DNA from: Jaapia argillacea MUCL 33604
Lineage: Eukaryota; Basidiomycota; Agaricomycetes; Jaapiales; Jaapiaceae
Assembly: GCA_000697665.1 (NCBI GenBank)
Contig: KL197716.1
Location: 223,385-269,658 of the forward strand
Length of the DNA: 46,274 nucleotides
Reading direction: 5' to 3'
Positions 5,747 through 13,165 of this stretch are shown here, one piece after another (position 1 is the stretch's first letter; every line of letters begins with the position of its first letter). Made by a program: the position numbers and the translations under genes. The notes under the pieces were generated by a model. The model searched no databases, had not been told where the DNA came from, and saw only the letters and a program-made list of their open reading frames with translations.

Positions 5747-6966
5747 ATGCTGACGCTCAATCCAAACGCTGCTCACCCTGCAACAGCGCCGCATCTACCT
5801 GTAGAACTACAAGGGTTGATCTCAAGCTTCGTCCTCGAAGCCAGAGACCTCTACAACCTCTGCCTCGTCTCCAGAGCCGTCAACGCATACTCCACTCCCA
5901 TCCTATACCATACAATCATAATCTCCGACAATTACGATGCTTGGTCTGCCACCATACTATCCTCCAACCCTCAGTCACCATTTGCTACTATGGTCCACAA
6001 ACTCACCCTCCTCTGCCCACCCAATTGGAGCAGGTCTGGCAGCCTTCTCAAGGCTGTGTGCGATGTTCTCAAGACACTCACCAATCTTATCGACCTCTCC
6101 ATCATCGATTCTCCACTGCAAACCTCCTCCCTCGCATCCAGATTGTTGCCCTCGTTAGACTGTGCACCATTTCAACTGCGCCGATTTTCCTTGGTTAGCG
6201 TGGGCTATGGTACCCTTGAAGACTCAAAACACCTACTACACGTACTAAAATCTCAATCCGAGTTATGCGAGCTGTGTTGGTGAACGCCAACACCAATCCA
6301 GTTCATTCTATCCGATGATGTCGCCCCTCACATATCAGCTCTTGAGACCTCCAATCGTGGAATCTTGGATGCCTTTGCCAATCGTCCCATAAAACGGCTC
6401 CGAATCAATACCTCTGCCGCTACTGAGCGCGGTTTGATTGACGAACTCGCGGGTTTTGGACGGTCATTGGAGGCACTCTGTTTGTATAGAGATCATACAC
6501 GCGATGGATGGGCGATCACGATAAGGATCTTCACGGAGACTCTCATCCGCTCGATCGCAAAGGGTCTGCCCTATCTGAAGCACTTCTCTCTGTACAATAG
6601 TCACCTTCAGGTAAGCATCCATGATAACTCTGTAACAGGGCAGGGCTAACCGAATCATAGGGCTGTGCCTGAGACGATCTCTTAGCATCTTTTTCTTCAT
6701 TCCATCTGGAAACCCTCATATTGGGCGCCAGCACCCCATTAATATGGCTCGAAATTCCCCTTTCCAAATCCAACTTGATGATCGCGAAGCGATTCATGGA
6801 ACTTTCTACCTCCTTGAAGCAAGTAGCTGTGTCTGCGTGGGATGTGATGCCAGGACGGTACAGGAGGATGGAGGGCGGCGGGATAGAGGGCGGTGGGATA
6901 GAGGAGGGTCGGGATGTCGAGAACGCATTGGACGAGGGGTATTGGCGAATTGCTCCATTGGCATAG
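5747..6966 (+). pseudogene. F-box-like protein pseudogene (family member 1)
   Basis: The first exon, 5747-6610, encodes an F-box-like start (LPVELQGLISSFV then NLCLVSRAVNAYSTPILYHTI) and a leucine-rich middle. An intron 6611-6660 (gtaagc..atcatag) is followed by exon 2, 6661-6966, ending in DEGYWRIAPLA. The intact paralogue at 37576-38780 has the same layout: exon 1 in phase 0 and exon 2 of exactly 306 nt ending in PEYWRFVPLT. Two in-frame TGA codons break this copy, at 6281-6283 (after SELCELCW, where the paralogue reads QLCELSF) and at 6670-6672 early in exon 2. Frame and length are otherwise kept, so decay is recent. A 15-bp repeat near 6869-6905 gives an EGGGI duplication. F-box proteins normally recruit substrates to SCF ubiquitin ligases. 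Confidence 0.75.
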
Positions 6967-7571
6967 GTCAGTCCCGTTACGTTGGGAGTGAATTCTCAAC
7001 GATGATGCTGAGGACCGTTCCTTATATTTCCTGCCGCCGTATAGATGACCCCGTGCAACGAGTTTTCGTCATCTGAAGCGTGTACTTAAATATAACTTAG
7101 GGTCATCAACCAAGCTGGGACGACATAGAAGAGTCTTTCATGAGTGCAGGTCGGCTGCTGAATAGACATTCGCCCATCGAATTTTGTCAATCCACGTAGT
7201 GTCGCTTCGCGTAATCCAGGTGTCATTTTCCCACCTCGAGCTTCGCTGTCACCATTGCAGTTGGAGGGCAAACTCTGATCATGACCTTGTCTTTCGCGAG
7301 GCTGAATCACAATGAATTCCCCATTCGGATTCTCAGCGTATCACGTCCAAGGTTCCCGGTCTCCTTTTTCCATCATTTCATAAGGGCTCGCTCCCAACCA
7401 GTTGCTCAGGATCCACTAAGCTAACATTCTCTCAGTGTTTTTCGACTGCCGATTCGCCAGACCCAAGATGAGATATACATGGTAGAGACAAGAACAGAGA
7501 TGAAAAATACTACGAAAATCAGACAGAACACCCTCCCAACAACCTCATACAATCGACAACTTTGATTAAAT
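6967..7571. other. Intergenic, nothing recognised
   Basis: The stretch lies between the convergent ends of the F-box pseudogene (+) and the kinase gene (-). I see no conserved motif, repeat or long frame beyond short shadows. It is probably the two 3' regions. Confidence 0.35.
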
Positions 7572-10260
7572 TTAAACAACAATCCTCTTCATTTGTACAA
7601 CTACCTCTTCTGTACACAGGCGGCTCTCAATGTTTTGGCTCCAACACCTGGTAACGAGCGTCCATAGCTTGGCATCTAATACCCTTCCTTTACATTCATC
7701 CTGTGTGGGTTGTGTCGGTCGATCGCCGCGCACAACGAATTCCAGGACAGAAGACTCGTCAAATTGATGAAATGGCATGGCTTCGGTGTATAGCTGCGAT
7801 GGTTGGGAAGGTGCATAGAAGCAAGCAGGAGGTGACTTACTTCAAGACAAACACAGCCATAAGCATACACATCACTTGCGCGACTGTAAGGGAAATATCT
7901 CCCCCAAGCTTGTGGGGCAAAAACTTTGGGTGCCATCCACCTGACTCCACCCCACACAACTGTTTCTTTTGGGGATTCTCCAAGGCCAGCAAGGCCATAG
8001 TCAGTGAGCCATGGGTTGAGTTTGTTGTCAATGAGAATGTTTGCCTAATGGGAGAGAGGTTAGTTTGACAATGAAGCGAGCACCGTATGATTTACCCCAC
8101 GAAGATCACCATGCAAAACACCCTCTCCATGAAGATAATTGAGTCCCTGGGCAACTTTTTCCAGCTACGTAATTCAGCCATTTTTGGTCAGTCTACCGGT
8201 CCTGTCAGTAGGTCGAAAACCAACCAATCTGTCAACTTCCTTTGATGATAATTTCGTTTTCCGCATGTATGCCAAGACGTCCCTATGCTCCAACCAAGGT
8301 GAGACAATGGTCACATGATTCAGGAATAAATGGGAGACTCCAAGGCAAGGGAGGATATACGGATTCGAGAGGTTCGTCCATAATATTACTTCCCTAAGTA
8401 ATGCCTGTAACAGATGAATTGCTGGTCTGATAGAAACAATAACAGATCATACGCAGTTCATAACTCTCTTAGGCATTGTTTCAACACAGCGCCCACTGAG
8501 GCACTTCAGAGCCACTGTTTGGCTAGTGATGTTGAGGGCCCGGCTCAGCTCAATACCCAGGGCTTGGGCTCGGCTTTGGCAGGCTCAGGCTTCACAAATC
8601 CTGAGCCTGAGCCTCAGGCCCCAAAGAGGGCTTGGTCGGGCTGGGCTCGGGCTCAAGCCCCGGCTTGTAGGAGATAATGGTGACAAACTTCATCTTGGTG
8701 GGGGTGCGGAAGATATGGGCGTCGAGAGACTCAGAGAGAGTCGAAGGGAAGAGGACTGTCGAGGGGAGAGGAATGACCGAAATGAAGATGTGATTTGAGT
8801 CATGAGACCTGGGTGTTGGTGAGGTCGACGGTCGACAGTGGAAGCTGTGGTCGCCTGAATAAATGGGTCAGATTCAGAGGAGGTCATTACTTCGAGACAA
8901 AGACAACCGACTCACCTGAGTCACTTCTTGTCTGTCACTGATAGCTCTGAGGCCCTCTTCCATCTCGTACACTGCAATCACTGTCAATCAGATCCTCCAT
9001 CGATCATGAGAGACTGCAGCCTCGCCTAAGTTCATGGTTGTTGTTGTCGGCTCGCTAGTGATTCGAAGTGAAGCGTCGGGGGCGGCGTGAGCACCACAAT
9101 GCACCTGATGGATGGATGAAAATAAGAGTTTACAGAAAACCATGACAATAAGTTGATCTCCGAAGCAGGAATGTGGATAATGGGTCCCCATGGTATCATA
9201 CCAAGAGGACATTCGTGACTTGTCACCGCAACGTGGTGTGACAAACACACCCTCTCCCCTTGTAAGGATTGGGAGCCAGTTTAGGAAGGTGGCTGAGGTT
9301 GTGGCTGAAGCTTGGTCTTGTTTGGTTCCATTCTCGTTCATGCACGTTGGCACACTCTCTCGATTCCCCAGGTTGTCTTACACACTGTGTTGTCTACGGT
9401 CTCATTCGCTCTCTATCGTTCTCTCTTGTCGCTCTAGTATACGTTCCGGCTTATCGATATAAGATGGGTTACAGTTCTACTGCGTGACTTAGGAATGATT
9501 CATTGAGTGTCTTACACCCCTCCCAATTTTCGTGCTGCTCAGGTTCTATGTCCCTCTTATGAAAAACTGAGTACTAGAATCCACTGGCAGCACCAAATAT
9601 CTCTCCACTACCCATCATACAAAGCCTGGGCTCAAGCCTGAGGCTCAGGCTTTCCACGAACCAAGCCCGAGCCCAAGCTCTGTGCAGGCCCTCTTATCAG
9701 GTTGGGCTTGGCCTGGCTTTTGAGAATCGGGCTTGGCTTGGCTTTGGGCTTTGAGCCGAGCCCTCAACATCACTACATTTGGCCAAACCATGTCCCGACA
9801 AATGTTTGATTAAATGTCCCTCTGCTAACAGGGTTGCGGGCATTGAGTTCGATGCCTGTAAGGGAGAGGCTATTTGGAAGATGTAGAGACGCCATTGCGA
9901 CTGAGAGCAAAATCCAGTTGAGAGCGGTTCGTGGAGTTGGGGAGTATCAGTCTTCAGCGAGAGGCAGAGAAAACAAGGAGGTAGCTTGACAACAGTGATA
10001 GTGGCACTTATCGAAGGATTTCAAGATCTATTGAGGTATAAAGTTCAAGGATGTGTGAACTGGTTGTAAGCAAGCAATGGGGAACTCACCCGTTCCAGCA
10101 GATCAACAAGTTCCTGCGAGTCTGTCTCAGGTATGCTGGTAACGAATGTACAATTGAAGATCGCCGCCAATGAGTGAAGGTCGATCACTGTCATCATTGT
10201 AAGTGAGTTGTGAATCTTGCAAAGTTCGTTGGCATCTGCATTCTCTATCGTCTTTGACAA
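7572..10260 (-). pseudogene. TKL-type protein kinase gene split by a transposon
   Basis: Read on the minus strand, the kinase domain is in two pieces. Upstream of the insertion: ETDSQELVDLLER (helical N-terminal part), then NPVSRGTFNQTFVGTWFGQ, the glycine-loop strand. Downstream: a TVALK motif with the catalytic lysine, exon LLREVILWTNLSNPYILPCLGV, YLHGEGVLHGDLRG (catalytic HGD), NILIDNKL, DYGLAGL (in place of DFG), VRWMAPK (in place of APE), SDVYAYGCVCLE, and a C-lobe ending EEVVVQMKRIVV with stop at 7572-7574. Short introns with good signals separate the exons. A hAT-like element (8524-9775) sits between beta-2 and beta-3, so the gene is most likely dead, though the kinase exons are otherwise open. 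The family is the large Agaricomycete set of TKL-like kinases. The start at 10260 is the best available ATG but is uncertain. Confidence 0.8.
8524..9775. mobile_element. hAT-like non-autonomous element inserted in a kinase gene
   Basis: The left end reads TAGTGATGTTGAGGGC and the complementary strand of the right end reads the same 16 bases; similarity continues inward as GGGCT/GGGCTTGGGCTCGG-type sequence for about 150 bp on each side. The flanking 8-mers are TGTTTGGC (8516-8523) and CATTTGGC (9776-9783), an 8-bp target duplication with two mismatches. The length of 1252 bp and the lack of any transposase-like frame indicate a non-autonomous copy. Ends starting TAGTG and 8-bp duplications are features of hAT elements. 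Confidence 0.8.
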
Positions 10261-10281: not shown

Positions 10282-12494
10282 TCAGGCTTCGCAGAAATCA
10301 GGACCCACCTGAAGTGACAAGTGGCAAGCCGGACCAGGTGACGCAGCCGACTTCCCCAGGAGAGCATCTATCTGGCAGCCGGATTGACGTACGAGTTCAA
10401 GATATTGAGAAGCCAGCCACAAGTGTGCATGAGGAATGCTAATGCAGAAGGGAGAGTTCTTCCTAGGATCGGTAACATATCAATAGAAGGAAGGGTGTAC
10501 AACCCGGATAGTCATTTCCTCTCAATTGGTTCGAGACACAGGGTTGAAAGGAGAATGAAGTATGGCATGCAACGATTCAACAATGACCTTCCCTTCAGCA
10601 TCCTTGATGCCAACGAGGCTTGACAAGTTCTCCAATGAGAGAGGCTCTGCAATGGACATGATCACTGCGAGGAGGGGGCAGAAGCTATCCTGGTAAATAG
10701 ATCGCTTGAGATGAGTGTATGCCCGTTCAAGGACCACACGATAGATGGCCTCAAGCCTTTCTTCAGGGTCATCCCTGGCGTCATCAGGTGGATTGAGGAT
10801 CAAGCGTAAATCTTCGTCCAGATCGCGGGATTGCTCAAGGAAGTCGCAGACGGCTGAAGCCCAGATGAAGAGGCCACCGGCACCGTCCAAAAGGTCTTGT
10901 CTCAGCTGGGGGTTAGGCCAAGGGAGTAGCTTGACACCTTCATTGTCAGTACAAATAGTTCTCATTCGGGTATCAAAGTATCTCGCAAGGTCATCCTGAT
11001 TTGGGGGTGCGCAGAGATCAATGTAGAGGCATAGGGTGTCTTTCAAGGGCACAATTCTATCAAACTGGGTCTCCAGGCGACTCATGAGAAACAGTTTGAT
11101 GTGGCTTTGCAGGCAATCCAATGCTTGACAAACCAACTGCAAGATATCAACAGCATCATCACATTCATCCAATGCATCCATCACAATTACGAAGGGGGAA
11201 GCGGGCGGTTTGGACGCCTTCAATGGGCCCAAGAGAAGTTCAGAAAATTGACAATCCGATGTCGATGGAATGGATTGTTTCAAAACGTCACAAAGGTGTG
11301 TCCAGAAGGATTGGTGACAGAAGGTGAGGTGGTAGGCAATCATTGCCCAAACATTGCATCTGCTACAACGGGGAGCATCATCACGAGAGAAGAAGAAGCT
11401 ACCTCCAAGACGTTTTTGCTTGTGGAGTGAGTAAGCTACGGTGTGGGCAATGGTAGTTTTCCTCAGTCCAGCCACACCACAAAGGTATGCAATGGGAGCT
11501 CTGGGGGAGGTATTTGGAAAACCCCAATCTTCGATTTCATGAAGGATTTCTGCACGAGTGCCTTCACAGCAAATAAGCGTGTCTCGCCACTCTGCACCTT
11601 GGACCAACAAAGCTTGAAGGTGATAGAGGAGATTGACTTTGGCTAACATTTTCCAGAACAACATTAGCCCTGCCATCCAAGTTCAGAGATCCAACATACC
11701 CAAGTCTTTCACGCTGGCGTGTACATCCTTCAAGTCGGCATGCACATCCTTCAAGTCGGCATGCACATCCTTCAAGTTGGCATGCACATCCTTCAAGTTG
11801 GCATGCATATCCTTCAAGTTGGCATGCACATCCTTCAAGTCAGCATGCACATCCTTCACATGGGCATCCACATCGAGCTGGTGGTGTGCCAACCGCTGGG
11901 CAATGCTCTCATTCTGTTTGGACTTTGCCCTATCAAGAAGTTGCTTCAGGCTCCTGTGACGGATTCTGGTGAGGAAACATTGGAATATCAACTCTACAAG
12001 GCTCCGACCTTGCAAGTTCATCACAGGATTGTTGTATCTCCAAGTCCACGCCATCAGGAGCACTTAAAAGCCGAACCTCAAGGACTCGGAAAGTTCGACA
12101 TGTATAGTCAGCCAATCTCTCCCATTTTTCAACGTTATCCCTGACTCGCTACAATTGCAAAATATTTAGATCAGTCCGCATGCTGGAGACAATCGTGACG
12201 ACTGACCTCGACAATCTTGAGGATCTGGACAGTCAGGCCTCCAATCGTCTTCACAAATGGGAAGTGCCCAAGAACCTCCCCAACGTCTGTCAAAGCTGCA
12301 GCTACTTCCTGGCCCACAGAAGTCACAAAGGTAGGAAGATCAGGGTCTCTCAGTAGAGATACAAGCTCTGGGGAAGGTTGTGATGGTGTCGGACTGGGTG
12401 GAACAGGAGGTGTAGGGGTTGGAGTAGCAGAGGGAGATCATGATGATAGGAACTTTGGTGTGAAACTACGAACGAATTTAACTCTTTTCCTCAT
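10282..12494 (-). pseudogene. NACHT/STAND (NLR-like) gene with multiple lesions
   Basis: From ATG 12494 the minus strand encodes a basic start (MRKRVKFVRSFTPKF), a proline-rich stretch, a helical region (PELVSLLRDPDLPTFVTSV..), a second helical exon (VRDNVEKWERLADY), then LKQLLDRAKSK followed by about seven LKDVHAN/D heptads. A 59-nt intron (gtatgt..ttag, near 11690-11640) joins it in frame to the NACHT domain: AYLCGVAGLRKTTIA (P-loop), FVIVMDALDEC (Walker B) and a helical tail. Lesions: an in-frame TGA at 12438-12440, a TGA ending the main NACHT frame at 10522, and another TGA in VHPSFY*YVTD at about 10475. The P-loop itself reads GLRKT where active members have GSGKT. The C-terminus stops at 10282 with no WD40, ankyrin or TPR repeats, so it may be truncated. 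Such proteins act as fungal intracellular recognition switches; this copy is probably not functional. Confidence 0.75.
11702..11870 (-). repeat. 21-bp tandem repeat coding a heptad coil
   Basis: A unit of 21 bp (plus strand ACATCCTTCAAGTCGGCATGC, with one base varying between copies) recurs about seven to eight times. On the minus strand each unit encodes one heptad, LKDVHAN or LKDVHAD, with hydrophobic L and V at positions 1 and 4. The array lies just before the NACHT domain of the STAND gene and is best read as a coiled-coil linker. The near identity of units implies recent unequal exchange or slippage. Confidence 0.85.
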
Positions 12495-12621
12495 CGTGGA
12501 CTGAGCGAATTGGAGAGATCAAGACAAGGTCAACAAGGATATGTAGAAGCCTGGAGACTGCAGGTCATTACATAGGCTCAAAGACGCACACTATGGGTGC
12601 ACGCCTGCTATGGTGTTTGTA

Positions 12622-13165
12622 CTACTGAGCTAAGTTATCTTCACGAACTCGAGGAGGACATTATTCATGGTGATCTTTGCATGGTAAGCAATGACTATGC
12701 CCATCAATACTATAGTGGTATTTAAAACTGCCTTCTAGGAGAATATATTTATTGACCATGACATCCGAGTCTGTCCACACATAAGTGGTTTGGCCAGGCT
12801 TCTGGCCCATAACTCTCAACCACGATACAATCTCTTTCTTTTTCCCAGGCCAATAGTTACAACCAAAAAGGGTGATGTTTGCGCATATGGATATGTTTGC
12901 CTTCATGTAAGTCCTAGCTTCACTTCACATCATAGATCTGGTAGTTCCTCCAACTATTTATCAGTTGTGGACTGGGGGAAGAATCAAAGTGAAGAAGGTC
13001 ATGTTCCGACCAGGGCATAGAAGGCCAAAAGCACGCCCAACTGAGAGATGTGGTGGTAGTTTGATGCCTGACGAGCTCTGGAATCTGATTATGCTGGGCT
13101 GGTCCAGCCGATGGGAGAAGGGGAATCAACCAACAATGAGGGAAATTGCTGAGGAGATGGGTTAA
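12622..13165 (+). pseudogene. N-truncated kinase remnant
   Basis: The plus strand encodes ELSYLHELEEDIIHGDLCM, then after an intron (gtaagc..ttctag) ENIFIDHDIRVC, SGLARLLAHNSQP and TTKKGDVCAYGYVCLH, then after another intron a C-lobe ending GGSLMPDELWNLIMLGW..PTMREIAEEMG with TAA at about 13163. These are kinase subdomains VIb to XI. The N-lobe, glycine loop and VAIK lysine are absent, the DFG position reads HISGLA so the metal-binding Asp is gone, and the APE segment is missing. It resembles the same Agaricomycete TKL family as the kinase at 7572. It starts just upstream of the STAND gene, pointing away from it. A pseudokinase is possible, but truncation favours a dead fragment. Confidence 0.7.

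Follow-up and report, generated by a model that had tools for sequence, protein, structure and literature searches.

The locus studied here raises the question of how a protein kinase gene of Jaapia argillacea MUCL 33604 came to be interrupted in the middle of its coding sequence, and whether any product can still be made from the interrupted copy. It lies in a stretch of 46,274 nucleotides (contig KL197716.1, hereafter C8, positions 223385-269658), referred to below as the window, in which the host gene would occupy about 12.5 to 7.57 kb of the minus strand, with an N-terminal exon, an NPHP3_N exon and kinase exons. The original prediction, made from the letters of the window, had placed a hAT-like element inside the kinase and had hinted that the product might still be made.

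The interrupting segment has sharp borders. It extends from 8524 to 9775, a length of 1,252 bp to which a nested solo LTR contributes, and is bounded by terminal inverted repeats of 24 bp, at 8524-8547 on the plus strand and 9752-9775 on the minus strand, which are 96% complementary. Outside these ends stand the two copies of an 8-bp target site duplication, TGTTTGGC at 8516-8523 on the left and CATTTGGC at 9776-9783 on the right, identical at 6/8 positions. The borders first given for the element and its flanking repeats thus proved exact, and the two mismatches reported in the duplication were found again. None of the 31 matches to the hAT dimerisation profile PF05699 (Dimer_Tnp_hAT) that a profile search returned across the genome falls inside 8524-9775.

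The same ends recur throughout the genome. A 16-base terminus was found at 39 sites with at most one mismatch in 43.7 Mb, the two ends of the window element included, compared with a single site for the reversed control; this recurrence is not due to chance. With positions 8500-9800 as the query, at least 54 piecewise matches were obtained genome-wide, the window's own included, and at least 16 of the matches listed cover only the nested LTR segment. Ends were searched, with a tolerance of up to 3 mismatches, in 22 regions, of which 13 hold a two-ended copy (the window element not counted), ranging in length from 357 bp (L046, L047) to 5.8 kb (L018). When the flanks of these 13 copies were compared by eye, 12 showed perfect 8-bp repeats (L009, L010, L012, L015-L021, L046 and L047) and the remaining one (L011) a repeat matching at 7/8 positions. 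The other nine regions show one recognisable end or a variant end only, and some of them contain masked stretches. Short terminal inverted repeats, as judged from these ends and from the terminus count, are common to members of this hAT family.

The longest copy provides the link to a transposase. Indeed, one of the 31 PF05699 matches lies within the same-ended 5.8-kb copy at L018:1514-7308, with 31.5 bits in the genome profile search and an E value of 8.3e-8 against Pfam; no transposase family was found in the other four L018 ORFs scanned with Pfam. Because of the shared ends, the 8-bp repeats and the dimerisation domain in this same-ended copy, the segment 8524-9775 is classified as a non-autonomous hAT element. 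The hAT membership proposed originally is thereby borne out, and the family that it expected to share these ends does exist, with at least one predicted transposase-bearing relative in L018. The ends also read CACTA, and we considered whether the element might belong to the CACTA superfamily, whose duplications measure 2-3 bp. This assignment was rejected on account of the 8-bp duplication in 13/13 other two-ended copies and of the hAT transposase domain in the same-ended copy.

Several observations concern other members of the family. A second PF05699 match (C35:90421-90585) begins 365 bp inward of the terminus in L025, a copy for which no far end was found; these two are the matches, of the 31, for which the ends were examined. 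A variant terminus, TAGTGTTGTGCAGGGC, related to the family ends, occurs at L025:4800 and L026:1556, and the copies ending in it are possibly a sister hAT family. In L012, minus-strand ORFs at 1041-1442 and 6773-7375 (134 and 201 aa) abut the element on both sides; since they reach it from both flanks, this copy may also sit in an exon, and neither of the two ORFs matched Pfam. Known genes were sought beside other copies as well, and none of 10 ORFs, taken from 7/13 copies for which 93 flank ORFs were listed, had a Pfam match at 0.01.

The element of the window has itself been a target. A 256-bp insert with TG...CA ends occupies 9261-9516 and is flanked on both sides by the 5-bp duplication CCCCT (9256-9260 and 9517-9521). 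It shares 95.7% identity with a copy at C25 and has at least 16 matches elsewhere at 79-96% identity, and the copies of the hAT element on C26, C17 and C21 are devoid of the 9261-9516 segment. Furthermore, CCCCT occurs twice in the window element and once in the C26 copy, which represents the empty site. The insert shows what is expected of a solo LTR, namely the ends, the 5-bp duplication and an unoccupied site in a sister element, and it came in later than the hAT element. It had been overlooked in the original description.

The model of the host gene was built on the sequence of three gene copies, from which its exons and introns are deduced, as is the assignment of NACHT and kinase to a single gene. 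The predicted first coding exon is at 12207-12494 and the NACHT-type (NPHP3_N) exon at 10309-11634, the latter scoring 72.3 bits for a cut-off of 24.8. The kinase would begin with a stretch carrying a degenerate glycine loop (9784-9853, the start being a prediction), which has no Pfam match by itself and reads up to the insertion; past the insertion follows the stretch whose TVALK motif contains the beta-3 lysine (8453-8515), supported by the reading frame and by alignment with the paralogs. Four further predicted exons are open: alpha-C to hinge (8225-8404; PF07714, 11.7 bits, below cut-off), the HGD catalytic loop (8096-8164; PF00069, 18.9 bits, below cut-off), the DYG and APK motifs (7841-8044; Pkinase, PF00069, 40.1 bits, over cut-off, scored at 8044-7676) and the last kinase exon (7572-7793; PF07714, 16.2 bits, below cut-off), all on the minus strand like the preceding ones. 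Among the five kinase stretches compared with Pfam, one thus passes the cut-off, three stay below it and the glycine-loop stretch gives no match. By eye, the lysine of TVALK and the aspartates of HGD and DYG are present, as a protein kinase domain requires, and the glycine loop is degenerate.

In all three gene copies NACHT precedes the kinase and the predicted introns are short, and the two parts most plausibly form one gene rather than two neighbours. Kinase relatives are numerous, with at least 166 matches genome-wide. In the window copy, a 21-bp tandem repeat (7.6 copies, 11716-11874) lies in the putative coiled-coil coding part, and the paralogs mostly have other sequence at this position. 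Adjoining the host gene on the plus strand, at about 12576-13165, the motifs HGDL and ENIFID and a C-terminal stretch can be recognised by eye in broken frames; none of three ORFs of this suspected second, degraded kinase-like relic (about 12.6-13.2 kb) matched Pfam at 0.1.

Two paralogs on the same contig, about 135-160 kb away, offer natural empty sites. One is L043 (C8:389.9-391.8 kb) and the other is split between L044 and L045 (C8:367.5-376.6 kb). The minus strand of the window reads WFGQ ahead of the element and TVALK past it, and the site is uninterrupted in the paralogs, which read WLGQTVAMK (L044) and WVGRNVAVK (L043) with no intron there. The insertion accordingly sits where the original prediction had put it, between the glycine loop and the catalytic lysine, with the ancestral frame still visible on both sides. 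The element and the kinase had been found at that stage; the paralogs, the upstream stops and the transposase-bearing relative had been overlooked.

Further features set the three copies apart. The second paralog is itself interrupted by some 7 kb of unrelated sequence (L044:~4050 to L045:~4195, C8:368.5-375.7 kb) with inverted-repeat-like ends and a masked middle, located about 60 bases beyond the point of interruption in the window copy. The window copy retains the DFG-type aspartate (DYG, in the exon at 7841-8044), where L043 and L045 have glycine (GFG); these paralogs may for this reason be pseudokinases. Synonymous divergence between L043 and the L044/L045 copy is 0.20 in the kinase part and 0.48 in the NACHT part, a disparity suggestive of gene conversion or recombination between them.

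The left copy of the duplication (8516-8523) matches the sequence of L044 at the empty site, and therefore the right copy (9776-9783) is most likely the one that changed. Two mismatches in 8 positions of the window repeat stand against 1 in 104 positions over the 13 other copies. The chance of at least two mismatches in 8 bp, for 3-6% divergence between flank copies, is 0.02-0.08. The excess at the window repeat appears mild and, over 14 copies, not decisive; being thus unremarkable, it calls for no special cause, and an explanation of that kind was set aside.

The fate of the gene is best read upstream of the kinase. Across the five exons that precede it, the window copy has 3 in-frame stops, the second paralog (L044/L045) 5 and L043 none. 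Those of the window are at 12440-12438 in the first coding exon and at 10524-10522 and 10482-10480 in the NACHT exon, and one of them falls in a column shared with the second paralog. A further possible stop at 9949-9947, just before the glycine-loop stretch, counts only if the piece is exonic; near this position a stop is also found in L044 and none in L043. The window copy and L044 have another residue in place of the Walker A glycine ahead of the lysine. With three stops in its N-terminal and NACHT exons, where L043 has none, the window copy very probably yields no kinase product, contrary to the hint that one might still be made, although its kinase exons are, as first noted, open on both sides of the insertion.

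All three window stops resemble CpG-decay-type changes relative to L043. Branch-specific changes of the CpG type account for 16/64 such bases upstream of the element and 17/74 downstream in the window copy, for 3/34 and 0/30 in L043, and for 26/86 upstream in L044 and 2/34 downstream in L045.

Two points speak against reading the locus as an ordinary hAT insertion in a decaying gene copy. On the one hand, the kinase exons are open and their dN/dS with the paralogs is 0.59-0.60 (0.31-0.34 for the NACHT part), not 1. These estimates reveal constraint on the window gene copy in the past; the synonymous divergence of this copy is 0.40-0.50, compared with 20 changes over 975 sites on the element's own branch, and the branches over which dN/dS is measured therefore mostly predate the insertion. 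On the other hand, the two flank-repeat mismatches would arise by chance in a few per cent of cases given the element's own divergence.

Whether the gene was already dead from its stops when the element arrived, so that the insertion changed nothing, bears on the order of events only and is compatible with decay of the copy. We place the probability of this order slightly short of even. The three in-frame stops favour it, of which the one in the shared column may predate the split from the second paralog, and constraint on the kinase appears weak even between the paralogs, with a dN/dS of 0.95 in the kinase part of L043 versus L044/L045. Against it, the shared stop may have arisen twice at this position.

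Alternatively, splicing could take the element out of the transcript, in the manner of introners or of maize Ds elements turned introns. Read on the minus strand, a GT starts at 9776, where the altered flank repeat adjoins the element, and an AG ending at 8523 marks its junction with the other flank repeat; the implied intron is 1,254 nt long. Counted from the reading frames, its removal would leave the frame intact and insert two additional codons. The acceptor hexamer, CACTAG, recurs as one predicted acceptor of L043. Should the left flank copy represent the ancestral sequence, to which the match with L044 points, the GT of the junction would stem from one of the two changes in the right copy. 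Published parallels exist, too: parts of a report on introners (PMC9860276) describe introners that come with 8-bp duplications and contribute four residues, and passages of another (PMC3443670) discuss how introns may originate from inserted transposons and cite a paper on the creation of introns by maize Dissociation.

The remainder of the evidence weighs against removal by splicing. Both candidate donors, GTAGTG at the junction and GTGATG inside the element, have T at position +5, where the predicted donors of the gene (8 introns in each of 3 gene copies) have G in 21/24 cases, A in 3/24 and T in none; introns 4 and 5 are tentative in this set, the acceptors of the former not being clean and the latter depending on whether the piece near 9949-9947 is exonic, and the donor of intron 8 in L045 was read as GTAAAT. 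Predicted introns of the host gene and its paralogs measure 46-66 nt, and the implied intron would be about 20 times longer. By this yardstick, which is that of eight predicted introns in three copies of one gene, the donor +5 and the length fail and the acceptor fits. Furthermore, the upstream stops persist whatever becomes of the element, and because the ends TAGTG...CACTA are found family-wide, the GT/AG pattern is for the most part not special to this site. Splicing of the element is thus weakly possible, and as an account of the locus we regard it as highly improbable.

A broader version of the same idea fares marginally worse: the family ends (TA-GTG...CACTA, then G at some targets) would by their nature let the spliceosome remove a suitable insertion in frame, the altered duplication would add a second GT donor, and what interrupts the NLR-kinase gene would be a hAT element of introner-like character. 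Finally, an ordinary old kinase intron that happens to resemble a transposon can be dismissed as next to impossible, given that the two paralogs L043 and L044 read through the site with no intron, that the same ends and duplications occur at 13 other places, and that no support for it was found in comparing the two paralogs and the 13 other element copies.

Taken together, the whole reading that we prefer, and hold with high though not complete confidence, is as follows. A non-autonomous hAT transposon, presumably mobilised in trans by transposase from longer same-ended relatives, entered the part of one copy of a locally duplicated, predicted NACHT-kinase gene that codes for beta-2/beta-3, in a single insertion that generated the 8-bp duplication usual for such elements. 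An LTR retroelement later entered the hAT element and was reduced to a solo LTR, and stop codons were gained separately in the N-terminal and NACHT exons. The window copy is now a decaying pseudogene, very probably without product. Because it is also broken elsewhere than at the insertion, ordinary gene decay appears a better description than a new mechanism.

The locus offers a clear and internally controlled case of a duplicated NLR-kinase copy in decay, in which duplication, transposon hits and stops can be followed side by side. The ends of a hAT family in the J. argillacea genome, a transposase-bearing relative and natural empty sites are now on record. Should splicing nevertheless prove true, this hAT family would join the transposons known to make introns, a prospect that the present evidence disfavours.

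Among known systems, the window element is closest to non-autonomous hAT transposons of the Ds type, with which it shares the 8-bp duplication, the short inverted ends and the existence of transposase-less copies having the same ends as a domain-bearing copy. Indeed, the relation of Ds to Ac, as outlined in passages of one source (PMC3260210), is the same as that of the window element to the longer copy. The window element differs in its subterminal sequence, which consists of GGGCTTGG/GAGCC-like repeats in place of the Ac hexamer. The nested insert is comparable to the solo LTRs of LTR retrotransposons in its 256-bp length, its TG...CA ends, its 5-bp duplication and its 16 or more related matches. 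Introners with TIRs and TSDs and intron-turned maize Ds resemble the element in having GT/AG at or beside the ends and a removal that keeps the frame, but its donor context and length do not fit the predicted introns of the host gene, and the implied 1,254 nt compare with introner family medians of 30-654 nt (PMC9860276). As for the host, it is akin to fungal NLR genes of the NACHT/NPHP3_N type in its NPHP3_N domain and in its duplicated copies on one contig. Its kinase is C-terminal to the NACHT-type domain, unlike the PKinase class that a table in PMC4986451 places among the N-terminal annotations.
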